This document shows, in pieces, positions 3,395-16,634 of a DNA stretch of 47,500 nt. Under the pieces are notes generated by a model. It was not told the origin of the DNA and ran no database searches. It saw only the letters and a list, made by a program, of their open reading frames with translations. Origin of the DNA: Chromera velia (taxonomy: Eukaryota > Sar > Chromeraceae). The first letter of the stretch is position 1, and each line of letters starts with the position of its first letter. Made by a program: the position numbers and the translations under genes. The stretch is from NCBI GenBank assembly GCA_018398765.1, contig JAHBMJ010000253.1:1-47500 (forward strand), read 5' to 3'.

Positions 3395-3593
3395 TGGGGG
3401 ACCGCTAGATCCCTTGGGCGCGCGCCTAATGTTGCGTAAGCAAGCGAAACAGCTATACGGCATTAGGCGAAATGCGCCCCTTTGATACGGCTTAACGGAG
3501 TTACCCTTCATTAAGACGTAAATCTAGTCGTGTCTACGGGTTCCACAGTCTAAACTAGGAGCGATCGGCATTTTCGCGAAGAAGTTTGAATGG
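3395..3593. repeat. Direct repeat, right copy
   Basis: Second copy of the 198 bp repeat that starts at 2721. Ends at the shared word TTTGAATGG. In this copy the small hairpin has one mismatch. It ends about 390 bp before the start codon of the dehydrogenase gene, so it lies in or next to that gene's promoter region. Confidence 0.85.
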
Positions 3594-3983: not shown

Positions 3984-4763
3984 ATGCAGAGCTGCAAGAA
4001 GATTGTTGGCCTTGTCAGTGGGGGGGCTTCGGGTCTTGGGGCGGCGAGTGTGCGCCGTCTCGTGGAGAACGGGGCCCGGTGTGTGATAGCGGACCTGCCC
4101 TCTAGCCCTGGGAAGGCCTTGGCAAAGGAGCTGAACGCGTCTGCAGGAAGAGAGGCTGTGCGCTTTTGTCCGACAGATGTGACAAAGGAGGAGGAGGTGA
4201 AAGGCGCAATTGGGCACGCGGATGAGTGGGGAGGGGTGAACTTGGCTCTGTCTTGTGCCGGGATTGCGCTTGCCATCAAGACCTTGGGGAAGAAGGGAGT
4301 GCATCCTTTGGACAAATTCGAAAAGACAATTGATGTGAATCTGATTGGAACTTTTAACGTCGCCAGACTGTCAGCAGAGAGAATGAGCCAGAATGAGGCA
4401 GACGAAGAGGGACAGAGAGGGGTGATTGTGAACACAGCGAGTGTTGCAGCCTTTGAGGGGCAGATAGGCCAGGCCGCCTACTCAGCCTCTAAGGGGGGTG
4501 TTGTGGGAATGACGCTTCCCATGGCAAGAGACCTGGCACCTCTCGGCATTCGTGTGTGCTCGATTGCCCCTGGGCTCTTTCTGACCCCCCTGTTGATTGC
4601 ACTCCCCGAGAAGGTCAGGGAGGACCTCGGAAGAACTGTGCCGAACCCCGCGAGACTAGGGAGGCCCGAGGAGTTTGCGTCTCTGGTTGAGACCATCGCA
4701 CTCAATCCATACCTGAACGGGGAGACGATTCGGCTCGATGCGGCCCTCAGAATGCAGCCGTGA
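3984..4763 (+). CDS. HSD17B10: HSD17B10-like short-chain dehydrogenase/reductase (3-hydroxyacyl-CoA dehydrogenase type 2)
   Basis: Intronless gene for 259 residues, the length expected of the family. Classical SDR features are all present: a glycine-rich nucleotide-binding motif SGGASGLG (residues 12-19, first Thr replaced by Ser), Asp37 after the second strand (predicts NAD rather than NADP), the CAG motif at 91-93, Asn119, catalytic Ser153, and YSASK with Tyr166 and Lys170. The stretch [10 protein letters not shown] (151-160), the block ARDLAP (181-186) and the C-terminus RMQP match the animal 17-beta-hydroxysteroid dehydrogenase type 10 family, not a general SDR. Known members are mitochondrial tetramers that oxidise 2-methyl-3-hydroxybutyryl-CoA in isoleucine breakdown; in animals the protein is also part of mitochondrial RNase P. 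That second role is not implied here. The N-terminus is short, so mitochondrial targeting is not obvious. A likely poly(A) signal follows the stop. Confidence 0.95.
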
Positions 4764-4803
4764 CGATCGAGGGAAGACGGGGAAGGAAAACTGAATTCCA
4801 GTG

Positions 4804-4809
4804 AATAAA
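4804..4809 (+). terminator. Probable poly(A) signal of the SDR gene
   Basis: AATAAA about 40 bases after the SDR stop codon. Confidence 0.55.
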
Positions 4810-5287
4810 GGGGCAAGAGATGGAGCAACAGATGCATGGGGGATATAGAAAGGGGAGAGAAGATGAAAGAGCCCGCCGAGAGGCGCGCACACACAGAGAG
4901 AGAGAGACACGGAGAGCACAAACGCGGCCGCAGAATTCATGCGGGACAGAAGTCACGAGGGTCGGCCGTTCGGTCAGAGAAGCCGGGAGACAGCTTACAA
5001 AACAAAAAAACAATCACACATGCTTTTGCACGTGCAATAATCTCATGCATTCAATATGAGCTGAGATTGAGGTCTATAGTATAAGCTAGAGTATGATCGA
5101 AGTAGGAACTTCTCTTGAACTAGGCTACTAGTAGTAGTAGTAGGCTTCGAAACTTGAAAGCCTCAGTGCATATCAATCCAAACTATACTTTAACTTAAAT
5201 TCTAAGCTAATAAATATGATGTAACATGAATAAAGCTTAAAATTGCTTTAAATTTGTAACTCTGCTGTTATATCAATAGGGCTTGGA
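4810..5287. other. Spacer, no gene seen
   Basis: Downstream region of the SDR gene. It turns sharply AT-rich after about 5000 and contains a short TAG/AGT trinucleotide run near 5128-5143. No supported gene or RNA. Confidence 0.5.
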
Positions 5288-5370
5288 AAAGGTGCACCTC
5301 AGAAAAGGTGCAAACCAAATGCACCTGTTTTGTACCAGATGCACCTGATGCACCTGTTTTGCACCTGATT
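5288..5370. repeat. Cluster of GCACCT-type motifs, first copy
   Basis: Within about 80 bp the words GCACCTGTTTT, GCACCTGAT and their near matches GGTGCACC and GGTGCAAA recur six or more times. A similar cluster lies at 7470-7556 in the same orientation, so this is an interspersed repeat and not random composition. GCACCTG contains CACCTG, the complement of the E-box-type word CAGGTG; regulatory use is speculation. Confidence 0.6.
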
Positions 5371-5400
5371 GAATAGAATTGGATCAAAAGTGTCAGCGTC

Positions 5401-5480
5401 ATGGCCATGCAACGCGCCGCGGCCCCGCCCCTGTGGCTTCCCGCGGCCCCAAACGCGCGTGTTGCCGGGCCGCGGTATGC
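5401..5480. other. GC-rich islet with an inverted repeat
   Basis: An 80 bp block of almost pure G and C in AT-rich surroundings. CCGCGGCCC at 5441-5449 and GGGCCGCGG at 5467-5475 are perfect 9-bp inverted repeats with a 17-bp loop that is itself nearly palindromic (AACGCGCGTGTT). It adjoins the GCACCT cluster. Confidence 0.65.
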
Positions 5481-7469
5481 GGAACAAATCTAATCAGCCA
5501 ATTTTTGAGAAAAATTTAAAATCAGCTACATGCATACAGAGGTCACTGAAAGTACGTTCGACAACGCATACGCTGCAAGAAATCCTAGATGAAATCAAGT
5601 CCATTGGAGTATGAGTACCTCTTCTCTTTGCAGCATGAGAACTGTTTTATGGGCTGCCTTATATAACAGAAACGACTGCATATACACGTATAGCAACATA
5701 TAGCAACGCGGAGCGGATAAGCGTAAAAAGACCAGAACAACAGGTTTGAGTTAAGAAGCTGAGTAAGCAGACTGAGTCTGTTTGCATAGTAATCGTACAA
5801 TACCAAACAGTTTGCCAGGAGGAAACAGCTTCCTCGACCTTAATTTATTAGCAATCCGAGGATGAATACCAACACAGTGCTGTATGCAGATTCTTTTTCA
5901 TATGATGAAGAGAAGCAGAAATGGCACACACATGGAAACACGCATACGCAAAGGTACGTTAACACTCTCCCTCTCGGTTGTAGATAAAAACTTTTGAAAC
6001 CTGGTGCCAGGTGCTCTTTACGATTGGCGGGCTCGATCTATCTTAGTCAGTAAGAGTGCAATTGGTTTGATCATTCGATTTGTTGCTTTACCTTAGAGAG
6101 TGGAACCATTCATCACTTTCGTCTACTGATGGCTCATCAAGTTTGCATGCTCATACACATACAGATCTGTATTTGCCTTTCTGTCATGCTACGGCTTCTT
6201 GTTGCGTTTGGTACTTCAAGAGGGTTTGAAGTCCATCTGTAGAGGGAATTGCAGCTTTCCTAGGGGCGTTCACCCCTTTGTTCACGAGTCGTCAGTCATA
6301 CCGGTCCTGTATACTGATCACTGCAGTTAATCATTTTTTAATTTTACAAACCGGGGTCCTATCCAAATAGACGGCTTCAAACAAATGCCAGCAAACAAAA
6401 GAGGAGTTGTTGAAGAGTAGGGAGAGCCTTCTTTTAGATCTAAAGACGGAGAAACTACTTGTACTAGCCGCGTAGATCTTTGCAGGTGGCTTAGGAGGAT
6501 ATAAAAAGACAAGCTAGTCTGGATAGACATCATGAATCAAGCCTGGTCAGTCAAAAGAAGAGGGTCTGAGGTTAGGAATCGTACCTGTCCGACTCTGTTC
6601 ATATTTCTCTTATTCTTCAAAGCCAAACCTAGAGCCAACCCCAAATCAAAAGCCAAAGCTAAAACCTCCCCTCCATCCCAACCAGCCTGCATCAAACCAG
6701 AGGAGTTTCTAGGGAAGAAAGATGACATACTGAGGTCGACTTTCAAGTTGGACTTCGAGTGAAACAAAGTCTGCAAGGAGCCTGCTCTCTCCTCTTCTTT
6801 CTCCTCTTTTTCTTTCTCTTTTTCCTCTTTTTTGTCCTCCGTTATCATTTTGTGTGGGGGGGTGAGCTAGGGGGTGAGTGAAGAAGAGTGCTAGGGTATA
6901 TAACGGGGTTGGGCTCTGAGCCTTGAGATCAGGCCCTCACTCATCCTCACTTGCCCTTGCTCAAAGGAAAAATGCAAATAAAAAAAAGCCTTCTTTTATT
7001 TCATTCTTTCTTCTTCTTTTTTTTTCCATGAAAACACACCATTTGTGGTTGCTTTCTTCATGAGTTTGCTCCAAAGGGGCATGCATGCAGTTTGAAGGTT
7101 TTATGGACCGTAGGGACAGAACTGGACTACAGTGCAGCACGCAAATGGCACCAAACATATTCAAACACTATAAGCATGCAAAAAAGGCATTGGAGAGGTG
7201 AAAAACGTTGCTTAAGTTGAGAAAAGAGACCTAGAAAGAGACCGAAGTCATGAGACAGTCAGAGATATAGAGTTTTTAATTATAATATTTTTTATTTTTG
7301 CTTTTTATCGCCTTTTCACTGATATTTCTAGCAACATTTAAACTTGTTTTGCATAGTAAAAACTAGTGTGGCAAATCTATATCATAAAAAGCTTTTAGAC
7401 TTTGAATGAGGTGCTTTTTAGCCGTTAGAAACACTAGAAATTAACCCTAGAAACATAGTTTTCATAGGG
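5481..7469. other. AT-rich stretch, at most a weak small frame
   Basis: Nothing firmly supported. The best plus-strand frame is 6532-6762 (76 codons from a true ATG), with a Lys/Ala/Pro-rich middle and a better-looking last 20 codons; AATAAA-like sequence follows near 6970. The complementary minus frame (6537-6848) is equally open and begins with Glu/Lys low complexity, so neither can be preferred. A TATA-like TATATAA is at about 6897. Confidence 0.3.
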
Positions 7470-7730: not shown

Positions 7731-9067
7731 ATAGCTAGCCCGTACGCAGATAGTAAGACCGCTTTACCGGACCTAGAGCTTTAAATTCCTGGGTCGCGCA
7801 AGGTATTAATCAGCTCTATCGCATGCAATCCAATCTGTCAATCTCATCTAGTGAATCAGAGTATCAACATGTTCTTCTGTTTATCTTTGTGCTTGCCTCT
7901 AGATCTGATAGTCCTTAGACTCTGAATGATGGCCGAGACCCCGGTGCTCTTCTATATTCTTTTTATGTCTGTTTAGCATCAACAGTACTGGTATACAATA
8001 TGGTACCAGGCCTGGTTGTTCGATCCATTCTTTTTTTTCAAGCAGCCTCACCAGATTCGTTCATGTGAGCCTCTAGGCCATGCCCTTCTGCTCTCCATTT
8101 CTGACAATGCTAGCCACTGCCTCAACGCATATTGGCATCCAAATTACTGGAAAAGATCCATTAGATAAATTGGTAGGCTGCGGCGTCATCCAGACACCTG
8201 AAAAATTGAGAGGAAGAAGTAGATGCCGAACGACATGTAGGGCGTTAATGTTGGATGTTGGAAGGACCAGGTAGCAAAATAATCAAAGAAGGCCCTGGGA
8301 AAGCCGATGAGAGGCCGTTTGTGATCTAGATGGCGGTCGCCGAAGTAGGAGAGGTTGATGGCGTGACGCAAAAAGTCCCTCCCAGAGTGTAAAGAGGAGC
8401 TCCCCACACTGGTTAAATATTTTGAAGTGCAAAAGGAAAGAAAACTGAAGTATAACCAAGAGAGACGGCACGACTGAGAAAAAAGATATACTGTGCGTCT
8501 GTACGTAGTATGTCTGTAGTTTGCAAAAAAATCGCGCCAAGAAGGGAGAAACCATGGAGAGGCTTCTTTTAGGGTAAAAGTAAAGAACAGATTGTTGCGG
8601 GTGAAAAGCTGAAACAGACTCTCATTTAAGTGTATATGTCAAACAGACTGGTGAATAATCTAGTGAATAATACTGTTAATTAAATAAATTGAAGTGGTGT
8701 TTTGAGCGTGAAACTTGAAGTCTAATTAAGCTTAGGTCTAAGCAAGGGTCTAAGCTAAATTTTGAATTAAGTATATCAGTGTGTTGTATACCAGTATTGT
8801 TGATGCTAAACAGATATAAGGAGGGTATAGAGGTGCACCCGGGTTAGAGACTCTCGGCCGTCATTCAGAGTCCAAGGACTGTCAGATCTAGACTCTAGAG
8901 GTAAACACAAAGACAGACAAAAGAATATGTTGATACTCTGATTCACTGGATAAGATTGACAGATTGGATTGTATGCGATAGAGCTGATTAATGCTTTGTG
9001 CAGCCCTGAAAAGCTCTAGGTCCGGCAAAGTGGTCTTGCTATCTGGCAGTGCGTGCAGGCCAGCCAT
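7731..9067. mobile_element. Non-autonomous element with ~270-290 bp terminal inverted repeats
   Basis: The left arm (about 7731-8002) and the right arm (about 8779-9067) are reverse complements over their whole length at roughly 85% identity by eye. Shared landmarks, read outward to inward, are CCGGACCTAGAGCTTT, TTAATCAGCTCTATCGCAT, GTGAATCAGAGTATCAACAT, CTCTGAATGA and GTTTAGCATCAACA. The outermost match is ATAGCTAGCCCGTACGCA against ATGGCTGGCCTGCACGCA. No clear target-site duplication was found. The 775 bp interior has no transposase. It does contain a minus-strand frame (about 8190-8400) that looks coding (see separate entry). Long arms around a foreign interior fit a foldback or Pack-type element. 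Confidence 0.8.
8186..8404 (-). pseudogene. Exon-like fragment inside the long-TIR element
   Basis: An open minus-strand frame of about 72 codons without an ATG. Its translation is rich in aromatic and charged residues (for example RDFLRHAINLSYFGD, then a hydrophobic end MSFGIYFFLSIFQ) and looks more like protein than the Ser/Leu-rich noise frames nearby. The sequence after FLSIFQ is GTGTCTGG, a possible splice donor. I do not recognise the family. It could be a host exon captured by the element, or chance. Confidence 0.3.
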
Positions 9068-9870
9068 CGGTGTGATGCTCTAGGTGATGCTAGACGGCGG
9101 CACACGTATACAACACAAATACCTTTTCTCTTTTCTTCTTTTTCCTTGAGTGACTTGTATTTGATTTGCATATGGAAGCAAGAGGGGCAACGTATGTGAT
9201 GGAGATGAATGTGAAAAGGCAGAAAAACACTCACTGACAGGGTGCTAAGCCTTGGAAGAGAAAAAATTAGTGGAAGTTTTTTGAATATATTATCGATCAT
9301 TTCAAACAAATGCGATCTCGAGTCATGCTCTGTCCTAGGTGTGATCTGTAAAGTTTAAAAGTGAAATAAAATTTAAAGTCTAGTTTGAGTCTGTAGACTC
9401 TAAAGTATAACTTTTGAAACACACTTTAATTTTTTTTTAACAAACATTAAAAAATGTTTTAAAAGGCTCAACAATCCTAAACAAAAACCTCAATCAACAA
9501 TCTTAAATAGGACATCAATGTGTTCAAGCTTTTTATTCTTAAAGTTTTAAAACCAAAAAAGTTTTAAAGTTTAAAGTCTGTGGTCACACCTTATTATAAA
9601 AATAACTTTAGTAACTTTACAGATCACATCTATAGGCTCTGTCAGATGTAGTCAGATATGATATTACATTATAAATTTAATGTAATTAAGGTTGAGTTTA
9701 TTGTAAAATATCGTATCACCATATCATATCATATTATCGATTAATTTACACTGTAATACTATTTATCATACATATTGTGCAGCATATACTTTTATGTATT
9801 TAATTTTAAAAATAAAAAAATTAATGCTTATAATAGTTAAAAGTTTTGTCCTATATTTCATAACTTGAAT
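9068..9870. other. AT-rich spacer, no gene seen
   Basis: Very AT-rich from 9340 onward. Repeated short words (AAAGTTTAAAGT, ATATCATATC) occur but no gene, RNA or element edge could be identified. Confidence 0.5.
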
Positions 9871-10646
9871 TACACTGCGTTGTTAGGAGTAACCAACTTT
9901 GTTTGGTTACTTAGGCGGCCTAACCATTTTTGTGGTTAGGGTAATTATGTAGAGTCATATTGATTACCATTGTTTTGGTAACCAAAACAGTAGTAATCGT
10001 TCTTTCCAAATAGCCAAACTAATGAGTAAATTTGGTATAAAAACTAGTGCAAAAGATAAATTTAGTGCAAAGTTCTCTTATATCCATAAATATATGTCTA
10101 ATTTAAGTAGATCAATTTAATGGACACTGCATTGGAGAACACCATAAAAAAAGCTTTTAAAAATGAATATATGAAATAAAACGGGCGGTATAAGGCGGTT
10201 AAAGTCATTAAATCATGGTCGCACCGCGGCTTGACGTGTTTGCTAAAGACTTAGAACTAGGCGCCGGTAAGCGCCGGCTAGAGAAAAAAAAAAAAGAAAA
10301 AAAATAAGCGATTTGAGGAGATCTTTTTTTTTTTCTTTTTTTTTTTTTATTATTTTTCAACTCTGAACAACACTTAGCAACAGTTGTGCAACACATAAAT
10401 AACACTTGTACAACACTTGAACAACAGTTGTTTGACTGATATAAAAAAAAAAAAGAAAAAAAGTAAACGGTTTTGAGGGATCATTTTTTTTTTTTTTCTC
10501 TAACCGGCGCCTAGACCTAGAATGGCCAGATTACGATGGTAGCGGTAGTTCCCTCAGACCCTCCCAGTTACCAAATTATGGTACCAATTTGATGGTAATT
10601 AAAGGCTTTCTGAAAAAGGCCGGTAGTTACTCCTAACAGCACAGTA
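9871..10646. mobile_element. Mutator-like MITE, copy 1, with a nested MITE
   Basis: Ends are inverted repeats: TACACTGCGTTGTTAGGAG on the left against TACTGTGCTGTTAGGAG read inward from the right, both continuing TAAC. The flanks TAACTTGAAT (9861-9870) and TAGCTTGAAT (10647-10656) are a 10-bp direct repeat with one mismatch, in the range of Mutator-like target duplications (9-11 bp). A small GC palindrome, TTAGGC-G-GCCTAA, sits at 9911-9923. No transposase is encoded. A hAT-like MITE is inserted inside at 10258-10514. Superfamily assignment rests only on duplication length. Confidence 0.7.
10258..10514 (+). mobile_element. hAT-like MITE, copy A (nested)
   Basis: Perfect 12-bp terminal inverted repeats CTAGGCGCCGGT. 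Flanks ACTTAGAA and ACCTAGAA are 8-bp direct repeats with one mismatch, the target-duplication length of hAT elements. Inside each end lies a long A-run or T-run block (A12-G-A8 type) and the centre has repeated AACAACACTT/AACAACAGTTGT words, so a transcript could fold on itself. A second copy lies inverted at 15582-15826. Confidence 0.8.
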
Positions 10647-13725: not shown

Positions 13726-14247
13726 CTATGATTGCGTCCGAGGTTCTTCAATCATCGCTTCCAACTGAAGAGCTTTCCGTTGCGCAACATCTGATGGATT
13801 GAAGTATTCTTTAATATGCTCTACAGACGTTGCACCGAGTCCTGAATCATCGACAATGAAGTTTGCGGCTTTCATACCGTCGATTTCGAATCTTGCATCA
13901 GTGGGTTAACTCAAAGGGGTATTTTCATAATAATTATGAATTTTCATAGTGACTCTGGATTTCATAATGATTATGGGGGGTCACCTAACTGTGGAAGCCG
14001 ATTTCTCATCTAAAAATCACTTTCTCAAAAAACTGTTTAAACGAGTTGATTTGTCTCATAAAGATGAATTTTAGCTGTAAAACTCCTTCAAATTCTCCTT
14101 TTTTTCATCAGACCATCCATAATGATTACGAAGATTTTATAGTCACTATAATGATGCCATAATGATTAACGAGTTAACCCAGTGATATGGAAACTTCAAA
14201 CAGAAGTCGCCTACTGCGTTCTTCACGGTGAGATTAAACGAGGACAT
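13726..14247 (-). pseudogene. 77-codon reading frame split by a MITE
   Basis: On the minus strand an ATG at 14247 starts 21 codons (beginning MSSFNLTVKNAVGDF). The frame is then interrupted by the MITE at 13899-14184 and resumes for 56 codons to a TAG at 13726. Removing the element and one copy of its AT duplication makes the two parts exactly in frame. The residue mix (for example NFIVDDSGLGATSVEHIKEY) is protein-like, with no stop in 77 codons. An in-frame stop precedes the ATG. I do not recognise the family; it could be a complete small protein or one exon of the gene to its left on the map. As it stands the frame is broken unless the element is spliced out. Confidence 0.55.
13899..14184. 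mobile_element. MITE with 14-bp ends CAGTGGGTTAACTC, inserted in a coding frame
   Basis: Terminal repeats CAGTGGGTTAACTC and, from the other end, CACTGGGTTAACTC. The subterminal parts also match in inverted orientation (CATAATGATTATGG and ATAGTGACT words), giving arms of about 75 bp. It is flanked by AT on both sides, consistent with a 2-bp duplication. No coding capacity. The element is 286 bp long. Confidence 0.8.
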
Positions 14248-14520: not shown

Positions 14521-14729
14521 CCGCGCTTGGCTCCGCGCGGTAAGGTCTATAGACGTGGCCGGCGCCTTCGGCGCCCACCGGTAAGGTCCAGACGGCGCCG
14601 GCAAAGTCTGAGGGCGCCTTCGGCGCCTATACCGGCAGTTTCTGACCGGCGCCTTCGGCGCCTACCGGCAGTTTCCGACCGGCGCCTTCAGCGCCTACCG
14701 GAAACTTCTTCAGTGGGCCTTTGGCCCAC
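14521..14729. repeat. Array of GC-rich hairpins, period about 32-35 bp
   Basis: Four units carry the same perfect or near-perfect hairpin GGCGCCTTCGGCGCC (14561-14575, 14613-14627, 14648-14662, and with one change 14681-14695), flanked by ACCGG and separated by short AAGGTCT/AAAGTCTG/CAGTTTC linkers. A shorter palindrome (CGGCGCCG, 14593-14600) sits at the third position. The last unit, 14713-14729, has different arms that still pair perfectly (GTGGGCC-TTT-GGCCCAC). The first (14521-14540) pairs CCGCGC with GCGCGG. Pairing is conserved although bases differ between units. The surrounding DNA is AT-rich. Confidence 0.85.
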
Positions 14730-14782
14730 CGGCATCTTCCCATTTGAAAAACGGCTTCCTGACCACCACCCTGGGGGTATTT

Positions 14783-16634
14783 TACACAGTATAGTTAGGA
14801 GTTACTACCGGCCCCTTTTAGCTAGTAACAAGTTACCGTGATAATGTTCCACGCTCCTCCTACTCGTAAGTGAACAAGCAGGAGTGGAAACTGGAAGCTA
14901 GAGGTCTACTTAGGTGAGATGACTCTCAAGAGACCGCAAGAGACTAGAACTTCAAGGGCTGAAGGTTGTTTATCACCAGTGGATGAGTGTATGTGCAAGT
15001 ATCTAGAGCTGATATCAATCAATGTTCGAGTGTGTTCAAAAGTGTGTCGATTCTTCTGGGAGTCAATTCGGTTGAATGAAATGAAAAAGTGGATCAATCG
15101 TTTTGTTGGGTTTCGGGATTTGATGAGTTGTGGTACAAAATAGATGATGTACATCGTTATTCTTTTTGCATGTGTTTGCATGCGTTGTATATGTCAGCTC
15201 GCTAACATACTCGTACCCTGAATAAGTCAATTTAGTAACATAATAACACACTGACAGACTGAGTACCTGAGTGTGTTACTTTGTTGACATACTAATCCCC
15301 TCAGTCTGTCACTTCATCAAAATCGGCTTCAGTGTGTCACTTCAGTCTGACTACCCAATCTTACTATCCTCTCTTCCATTTACCCTCATCTTTCCATCCT
15401 CCACTGCCTTTCTTTCTTTTTCTAAAAATTATATTACCAACCAATTCTTTTGATGAAACTCATAAATAAGTTTTATGAGGATTATCCTCTAAGCATCTCT
15501 TAGTATTTCTAAGCATTATCATATTTATACTTCTTTTCTTTATTCTTTTACTAAATTGATATTTAAGTATAAAGCTCAACACTAGGCGCCGGCTAGAGAA
15601 AAAAAAAAAAAAGATCTCCCAAAACCGTTTACTTTTTTTCTTTTTTTTTTTCTGTATCAGTCAAATAACTGTTGTTCAAGTGTTGTACAAGTGCTGTTTG
15701 TGTGTTGCATAACTGTTGCTAGGTGTTGTTCAGGGTCAAAAAGTAAAAAAAAAAAAAAGAAAAAAAAAAAGATCTCCTCAAATTGCTTTTTTTTTTTCTT
15801 TTTTTTTTTCTTTAGCCGGCGCTTAGGCTCAACATAACAATAATACCGTCAGTTTGGTAACCATGAGATGGTAACCAGCGGACTTGAAGGCATGTACCAC
15901 TACCACGGTAGTTCAAGGAAAAACTATGGGAAAAACAATTGCTAGACCCATTTTAAAGCCTGACCACTTAACCCATTAACAGTTTAAAGCCCTTAGCCCT
16001 AAAATGATCATACCGTGTGACTCAAAACGTATATGCTATATATAATGATATACTAGTTAGAGCGCGTTAGAGTTCAGTCATAAAATGATGAATAGTGAGT
16101 TTTGTTAGAATAAACTTTTGATGAATGTTAGTTAGTTAGTTAGAGGATGCCTAACCCCAGTTGGAGCGCTAAACTCCCAGGCAGCACATATATGCATGGT
16201 TGTTGTTTGTTAAGTCGCCGGTGGAGTTGATCAGTTAATCACTTTCTAGAATTGGGAGACAGGCATCAAAGAGACAGGCCGGATGCGAGTGTAGAAGTGA
16301 TCAAATAATATTACGGATGAAGAGTTCAGATGTACTTGCACCGGGAAGTGGACAGTTACAATCATTTGAATTAATGGATTCCAGCTCAGCCTACCAAAAA
16401 TCTAGATCAAAAATATAATTTTTACTATAGTCTAAATTTGGTTTTGTAGGTTAAGTTTAACTCAGAATGTGGCCAAATCTGCCTGTTTTTAGTTACTATA
16501 CCACTACTATTGGAACACTACTACCGTAACCACAAAATTGGTAACCGTCCTACTAGTAACCGTCCTAGCGGCCGCCTAGTAACCGTCCTACTAGTACTTT
16601 CGTTACTCCTAACCGTACTAGTAACCGTACTGTG
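14783..16634. mobile_element. Mutator-like TIR element, copy 2 (boundaries uncertain)
   Basis: The left end TACACAGTATAGTTAGGAG matches the inward-read right end CACAGTACGG...GTTAGGAGTAAC, with a short tandem duplication of ACTAGTAACCGT-type words in the right arm (about 16533-16630). Both resemble the ends of the element at 9871. No convincing target duplication was seen. The interior has no transposase; it carries a nested MITE at 15582-15826 and a NotI-type palindrome GCGGCCGC at 16568-16575. Confidence 0.5.
15582..15826 (-). mobile_element. hAT-like MITE, copy B (nested)
   Basis: Inverted copy of the element at 10258-10514. Ends are CTAGGCGCCGGCTAGAG and, from the right, CTAAGCGCCGGCTAAAG. 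It is bounded by a perfect 8-bp target duplication, GCTCAACA at 15574-15581 and 15827-15834. The A/T-run blocks and the centre with GTTGTTCAAGTGTTGTACAA are the reverse complement of copy A. Confidence 0.9.

Follow-up and report, generated by a model that had tools for sequence, protein, structure and literature searches.

A regular array of GC-rich hairpins near the right end of a dispersed family of DNA transposons

The window (the whole stretch of 47,500 nucleotides that we analyzed) contains an array of GC-rich hairpins at positions 14521 to 14729. We are nearly certain that this array forms the right subterminal region of a DNA transposon. Its distance from a sharp right tip, GGGGGTA, is about 50-260 bp, and we assign the element to a dispersed family, designated here family A. 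A related family, B, has an array of the same design. Judging from the anatomy of the two families, the array is probably kept as an array of sites for end recognition (with a rough probability of 0.6). The two families add an unassigned type of transposon that has 8-bp target duplications and, at one end, hairpins in an unusually regular array. Paired changes in the arms of hairpins are often taken as a sign of selection on RNA. The families provide a test bed for separating such selection from template switching, as the arms change in a paired manner between units and one-sidedly within copies, and as arm loss tied to loop inversion leaves a mutational footprint of a kind able to produce matching arms in the absence of selection.

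Anatomy of the hairpin array

The array includes the following features:
14521..14729, + strand: hairpin array, right subterminal region of a family A transposon (sequence, pattern and genome matches)
14521..14540, + strand: wide-loop hairpin CCGCGC ... GCGCGG (sequence, folding)
14561..14575, + strand: H1, hairpin GGCGCC-TTC-GGCGCC
14594..14599, + strand: H2, bare GGCGCC palindrome standing where a unit is expected
14613..14627, + strand: H3, hairpin GGCGCC-TTC-GGCGCC (sequence, folding)
14648..14662, + strand: H4, hairpin GGCGCC-TTC-GGCGCC (sequence, folding)
14681..14695, + strand: H4b, hairpin GGCGCC-TTC-AGCGCC with one mismatched pair
14713..14729, + strand: H5, the last hairpin, GTGGGCC-TTT-GGCCCAC, in the intact state (sequence, folding)

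The original prediction had placed here seven hairpins spaced by about 32-35 bp, four of them sharing GGCGCC-TTC-GGCGCC. The array is indeed there, but it is made up of six hairpins, five with TTC or TTT triloops and one with a wider loop, and the seventh place is taken by the bare GGCGCC palindrome. The GGCGCC cores follow each other at 52 (across the palindrome), 35, and 33 bp. Three hairpins have exactly the shared form, and the fourth (14681-14695) departs from it by one mismatch. The first and the last hairpins have the arms that were described for them, the loop of the first one being wider.

At a threshold of up to 3 mismatches, the core GGCGCCTTCGGCGCC has 9 matches in the window against 0.53 expected and at most 2 in any shuffle; 7 of the 9 matches fall within the array, and three palindromic sites were counted on both strands. 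The GC content is 68% in 14521-14729 vs 40% and 38% in the adjoining kilobases. The segment 14515-14745 (231 nt) folds better than all 200 of its 200 shuffled versions, on each strand and with DNA as well as RNA parameters (z from -4.5 to -5.4).

When read on the opposite strand, the array carries C-GNA-G triloops (C-GAA-G or C-GTA-G) on GC stems. In this it is similar to GNA DNA mini-hairpins, e.g., d(GCGAAGC), which are described as extraordinarily stable, with a Tm given as 78 C (PMC4686876). The mini-hairpins are synthetic oligonucleotides. We counted loop classes by hand at 50 listed of the 96 genomic places of GGCGCCNNNGGCGCC and obtained 33 TTC/GAA, 8 TAC/GTA, 7 TTT/AAA, and 2 other loops. 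At least 17 of these 50 places are within the fetched copies of family A; therefore, GNA loops are a trait of transposon families more than of the genome. A control stem, CCGCGGNNNCCGCGG, has a different closing base pair and so gives an imperfect comparison: among its 31 places, all of them listed, none has a GAA or GTA loop, one has GGA, and one has AAA.

A dispersed family of DNA transposons

A search of the eukaryotic assembly (177.8 Mb, 4,040 contigs) with the array as a query returned 31 matches including the window, which contradicts the view of the array as a one-off product. These matches constitute family A. All 30 of the others were fetched with their flanks. When the copies are aligned on the right, nearly all of them end with ...CATCTTCCCATTTCAAAAACGGCTTTCTGACCACCACCCTGGGGGTA, with small differences, and unrelated DNA follows; L011, L013, and L034 diverge at the right tip itself. 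A left end, TACCCCCCGGGCGCTAGTCAGATTTT..., is common to many copies. The tips of family A are inverted, TACCCCC ... GGGGGTA (7 bp). The tip patterns were found 24 times on the left (up to 2 mismatches) and 29 times on the right (up to 3 mismatches); reversed patterns were found 0 times.

The target duplication is 8 bp long. Among the 13 loci that have both tips by the strict pattern, the only ones counted, the flanking 8-mers are equal at 7-8 of 8 positions in 11; the two weak loci are L033 (5/8) and L035 (2/8). The 13 loci derive from 14 rows: L032 was left out, since its left flank is beyond the fetched stretch and the locus is already represented by C2669. Of 182 mispaired flanks used as a control, one reaches 7 equal positions, and both of its members are listings of a single locus. 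Outside the 13 loci, duplications at 7-8/8 were seen by eye in L014, L020, L026, and L036, and inspection by eye found none in L019, L022, and L034. The left tip is absent from the fetched stretch in L010, L016, L028, and L038. Copies range in length from about 0.5 kb to several kb and have internal deletions and internal tandem repeats; the short copies L009, L017, and L023 retain both tips and the duplications, and the longest ones carry nested insertions.

The inverted, defined tips and the constant 8-bp duplication are features of cut-and-paste transposons. The constant right end had suggested the 3' end of a LINE or SINE, and we dropped this reading because the left tips are constant and the 8-bp duplications are present. 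Helitrons are recognized by 5' TC, a 3' hairpin plus CTRR, and the absence of target duplication; tips of the form TA...TA and 8-bp duplications do not fit them. Target duplications of CACTA (EnSpm) elements are 2-4 bp long, and neither such duplications nor CACTA tips are found here. The tips of hAT elements are near YARNG, unlike the TACCC of our elements. The 8-bp target duplication, a hAT feature, is present; duplications of this length are common to hAT, P, and other superfamilies. The KDZ transposase domain PF18758 has 0 matches in this genome and also 0 in all 14 control genomes. A search of a plasmid collection gave zero matches.

The window copy and the gene of the element

The remaining parts of the window copy are the following:
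14773..14779, + strand: right tip GGGGGTA
14780..14787, no strand: 8 bp beyond the right tip, the place of the target duplication; its partner was not found, as the left tip of this copy was not found either
13759..13896, - strand: remnant of the element gene, residues 28-73 of the C907 frame, 83% identity
14170..14271, - strand: remnant of the element gene, residues 1-34 of the C907 frame, 74% identity
13903..14180, no strand: nested short element GGGTTAACTC...GAGTTAACCC with AGT on either side, foreign to family A

Three left-end queries found no left tip of this copy. The window copy is dead: its gene is broken, and the left tip was not found in the searches made. The nested element (278 bp, with inverted ends) splits the gene remnant. 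A 91% copy of it is located at L032 609-902, and the C907 copy is without it.

The C907 copy occupies L039 6101-9108, with TTTACAAG and TTTATAAG as flanks (by eye). Its frames on the - strand start near the right end and run leftward; therefore, the array is situated between the right tip and the start of the gene. A 175-residue piece of the gene has 31 matches in the genome including itself, of which 15 are at 41-46% identity and the rest at 28-38%, except for one short stretch at 55%. A homologous gene is present in both families A and B. The Pfam scan covered pieces of the gene, and none of the pieces from A and B has a family match at the cut-off; with E up to 5, there are below-cut-off matches only. 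Pfam recognized no DDE transposase in the gene pieces of either family, and no hAT dimerisation or BED domain was found in the scanned pieces. A sequence search of the PDB with the shared gene gave nothing credible. The elements may belong to a superfamily whose transposition protein is undescribed so far.

Several longer copies were considered as sources of a transposase and rejected. C1009 (L042) contains a nested Ty3/Gypsy-like polyprotein (frames read by eye), C221 (L043) has no recognizable frame, and C1623 and C860 have only parts in common with C907. The Ty3/Gypsy-like polyprotein frame of L042 is at 4791-7020, inside a family A copy. On contig C4028, positions 9500-9922 hold a 34% relative of the element gene within a stop-free open frame of 1,844 residues, which may be an intact relative or a host gene.

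Family B, a related element of the same design

Family B was traced in nine loci with the homologous gene (L052-L060). The left tip TACCCCCA... is present in all nine, and the right tip ...GGAAGCCTT(C/T)TTGGGGGTA in L055, L057, and L058, the three stretches that reach it. The families have the same short tips, and the inverted tips are longer in B. Duplications of 8 bp are found in two loci, ACGCTCAC/ACGCTCAC and ATCACCAT/ATCACTAT; a third locus is cut by the locus end, and the four duplication bases available there agree.

The right ends of family B carry hairpins at exactly 33-bp steps, and the number of units varies among the three copies: 6 in L055, 9 in L057, and 4 in L058. These 19 hairpins come from three of the nine loci, those with the right end within the stretch, and were kept from a scan of 29 rows after 10 were excluded as offset linker matches. 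The loop of the last hairpin begins 60 bp from the tip. The unit is GGGCTTTGGCAG... plus CCGCGCC-TTC-GGCGCGG. Compared with family A, it has a different linker, the same core, and outer pairs in which both bases have changed. Since the core GCGCC-TTC-GGCGC is largely common to A and B, the conservation is partly one of sequence and not of pairing alone. A query with the B array yielded at least 75 matching stretches, in places several per contig.

Subterminal motifs at both ends

Three copies of a second repeated motif, ACCGGCNNTTTCCC, are found at the right end of the window copy at up to 2 mismatches:
14631..14644, + strand: subterminal motif
14664..14677, + strand: subterminal motif
14728..14741, + strand: subterminal motif, 52 bp from the tip

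At the left end of family A, the motif begins 46-48 and 76-78 bp from the tip in all five scanned elements, and also at 110-111 bp in three of them. At the right end, its distance from the tip is 52 bp in five of six elements and 63 bp in C907, with more copies at 100-149 bp. All family A copies of the motif are on the + strand; mononucleotide shuffles give 0-0.3 per element. The left-end copies are embedded in A-rich DNA without hairpins, and those at the right end alternate with GC hairpins. The motif of family B, GGGCTTTGGCAG, begins 50 bp inside the left tip in each of the three elements. Near the right tip, its first copy starts at a distance of 50 or 81 bp, and from there it recurs mostly every 33 bp; one copy is on the - strand in each of the three elements. 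The layout is one of subterminal repeats unequal between the two ends, and this anatomy is the strongest pointer to a probable function.

Paired arm changes between units and decay within copies

The arms were predicted to change together, and between units they do. The comparison rests on 24 hairpins (5 from the window and 19 from family B; 19 distinct) that are related by duplication, so that the counts are inflated and the following figures are not probabilities: 86.5% of cells are paired vs 75.3% after shuffling and 27-46% with slid partners; 14 cells are changed on both sides vs a shuffled mean of 5.2; and the covariation score is 0.353 vs 0.151, with 0 of 500 shuffles as high in any of the three respects. 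The number of pairs with two-sided change, 3, is unremarkable (335 of 500 shuffles). The proposed check for arrays with compensatory arms at other loci is answered by family B, to which the two-sided changes extend and whose arms are changed yet matching.

The within-family comparison used 20 aligned right ends of family A, i.e., those of the 30 fetched copies that have the longer right-end sequence in common. Transitions affect 70 of 870 C/G cells in stems vs 330 of 3,874 other C/G cells (p = 0.69). G-to-A changes in stems number 43 of 435 and C-to-T changes 27 of 435 (p = 0.06). In two hairpins of the A copies, 32 pair-cells are changed: 21 are broken, 10 became G-T, and 1 is changed on both sides. 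The suggestion that the structure is kept is thus not supported for individual copies, whose arms decay one-sidedly in 31 of 32 cells; mutation of arms without compensation is what the original prediction had named as evidence against itself. As expected, dead copies decay freely, and any constraint acts on the lineages that went on moving.

Arm loss and loop inversion

The intact last hairpin has the form CTCC-GGTGGGCC-TTC-GGCCCACC-GGCA. In the 31 copies of family A it is intact in 16, has lost the left arm in 3 and the right arm in 8, and is in another state in 4, including L036 and L038, which the classifying script missed and which were placed there separately, and L034, which has a single arm and no loop. 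The form without the left arm is CTCC-GAA-GGCCCACC-GGCA, and the form without the right arm is CTCC-GGTGGGCC-GAA-GGCA, in some copies with AAA. All 16 intact hairpins have TTC or TTT loops, and all 11 one-armed ones with a readable loop have it inverted (GAA or AAA). A plain deletion would leave TTC; the inverted loops are a footprint of template switching or cruciform resolution. Template switching inside a hairpin predicts inverted loops together with newly matching arms (PMC8794818). Cruciform extrusion, resolution, and rejoining of the opened hairpins would, we infer, yield the same two products. Under either mechanism, the footprint suggests at least occasional folding of these sequences.

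The left hairpin of family B has an intact TTC loop in 5 loci, is one-armed with GAA in 2 and with AAA in 1, and is absent in 1. In the first hairpin of family A, the left arm, GGCCGGCGCC in the window subfamily and GGCGCCGGCC in the main one, is exactly inverted between the two. Both one-armed forms of the last hairpin occur in the window subfamily (L011, L010) as well as in the main one, and the case for recurrent loss of arms rests on this. The tree of 20 A copies is star-like (17 inner branches, 1 starred) and does not date or count the changes of state, of which it needs 7 vs 8.9 when states are shuffled (as low in 13 of 200 shuffles).

In a mechanical count, inserts made up entirely of an inverted copy of neighboring sequence are weakly above chance: 5 of 23 in A against 2.2 expected, and 2 of 10 in B against 1.4. 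By the same script, palindromic inserts number 5 of 23 in A and 0 of 10 in B. By eye and post hoc, we also noted 4-bp palindromic inserts (CATG, TGCA, CTAG, TCGA), built as w-rc(w)-w from a two-base w, in L017/L020/L030/L037, L019, L022, L024, L025, L033, and the wide-loop hairpin of L011. They resemble very small inverted triplications; inverted triplications of about 150 bp have been described (PMC13334657). The inserts AGTCTGC (L033), TGACAT (L032), and GCCTAG (L012) appear by eye to be inverse copies of adjacent bases, and the exact-match script confirms just that of L032.

Possible explanations of the array

If the array serves end recognition, its 33-bp units, each a motif plus a dyad, would be sites that lie about three helical turns apart and are occupied next to each other, and the putative binder would be a protein encoded by the transposon. 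In this way one end would be marked and the transposition complex loaded; perhaps the adjacent promoter would be controlled as well. The dyad would be kept through paired arm changes between units and families, and single copies, presumably under no selection after insertion, would hence decay. The palindromes would cause mutations of their own, i.e., arm loss with loop inversion and the gain and loss of units. A protein-binding or cruciform site, one of the options put forward originally, would fit the context of a transposon end. It is possible, if unlikely, that the folded hairpin array, extruded in vivo at a 33-bp phase, is itself read by the machinery of the element. Extrusion would then expose the array to template switching and cruciform resolution, which would both repair the dyads, so that arms change together, and turn them into one-armed forms with inverted loops, and one physical structure would explain recognition, paired evolution, and decay. 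The families thus allow a direct test of whether the end of a DNA transposon can be read as folded DNA.

The array could also have no function of its own, with unit duplication and template switching or cruciform resolution at GC palindromes making, repairing, and homogenizing the hairpins, one arm being copied from the other. We consider this unlikely. The following observations speak for it: the loops are inverted in 11 of 11 one-armed last hairpins and likewise in the left hairpin of B, loop inversion is named as an outcome of template switching (PMC8794818), GGCCGGCGCC is the exact inverse of GGCGCCGGCC between subfamilies, the B unit number is 4, 6, or 9, and stems are not conserved within A copies. 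Such an origin leaves unexplained why two diverged families have an array at the same end, with a phase near 33 bp and the same core but different linkers. Moreover, inverted-copy inserts are not clearly above chance in either family, and GAA or GTA loops are not general in the genome (0 of 31 places of the control stem). Selection on a structured RNA, either a leader of the element or a small RNA, would account for the paired change between units and for RNA folding far better than shuffles on either strand (z of -4.7 and -4.5), and the array, being upstream of the element gene, could be a 5' leader on the - strand. We regard this as quite improbable. The window has 0 Rfam matches at the gathering score, ACCGGCNNTTTCCC is present at both element ends, and changes of stems within copies are one-sided in 31 of 32 cells with no excess of C-to-T on the + strand. 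The + strand version of the RNA reading is not favored, as pair-breaking G-to-A changes are not rarer than C-to-T in stems; the same imbalance (43 vs 27), if real, would favor an RNA from the - strand. Least probable is a run of palindromes that moved independently and landed within each other, as GC clusters do in organelle genomes. The hairpins are GC-rich within AT-richer DNA, and at one place in family B, copies differ in having or lacking a hairpin, those with it having the flanking motif twice. However, what L060 lacks is one complete unit with a motif copy on either side, the expected product of unequal exchange, and intact hairpins keep a constant loop orientation and phase. The originally proposed run of palindrome-targeted insertions is disfavored by this constancy of order, orientation, and phase among copies and by the existence of family B.

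The nearest described layout that we found is that of Tgmt*, a soybean CACTA element (Tgm) with stem-loop subterminal repeats, 12 at the right border and 2 at the left, which its authors expect to be recognized by an element-encoded binding protein (PMC2613891). The likeness is in the asymmetric array of stem-loops near one tip. Tgmt* has CACTA tips and a 3-bp duplication (PMC2613891), unlike the TACCCCC tips and 8-bp duplication of our elements, and its stems, as described, are formed by the repeated motif itself, whereas here a separate GC triloop core lies between motif copies. The 7-base Tgmt* motif TTGGCAG is also found inside GGGCTTTGGCAG, at that length probably by chance. Among hAT elements, Hermes produces target duplications of 8 bp, and Tam3 is reported to have hairpin-prone subterminal regions. 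The subterminal repeats of Hermes are unlike at the two ends and are bound by BED domains, and a quasi-palindromic pair of repeats at one end raises affinity (PMC10368747). Our elements share with Hermes short repeats arranged differently at the two ends and the 8-bp duplications. In Hermes, the repeats consist of AAGT motifs and there is no array of GC hairpins, and the gene pieces studied here contain no hAT domain. The template-switch cases (PMC8794818) resemble ours in predicted perfect new arms, paired changes, and inverted loops. They concern RNA genes along phylogenies; here we have many copies of one transposon hairpin in the intact and both one-armed states. Among the papers listed in a literature search that covered few subscription journals, none described a transposon combining TACCCCC tips with hairpins arrayed every 33 bp, which is weak evidence that such elements are unpublished.

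Other repeats and genes in the window

A short element with poly-A/poly-T arms is present twice in inverted orientation (91%), at 10268-10514 and 15582-15825. Its ends are like CTAGGCGCCGG...CTCTAACCGGCGCCTAG (by eye), with GGCGCC again at the tips. By eye, inverted ends GTTAGGAGTAAC...GTTACTCCTAAC enclose about 750 bp at about 9884-10640, and a related sequence, GTTAGGAGTTAC, is near 14794, just beyond the right tip of the transposon. A direct repeat of 197 bp (2722-2918 and 3397-3593, 97% identity) includes GGGCGCGCGCC, and an inverted repeat of about 260 bp (81% identity) is formed by 7747-7998 and 8784-9045. Positions 3-2250 are a minisatellite with a 49-bp unit in about 46 copies. At 3984-4763, an open frame with 259 residues encodes a short-chain dehydrogenase (PF00106, E 8.5e-43).
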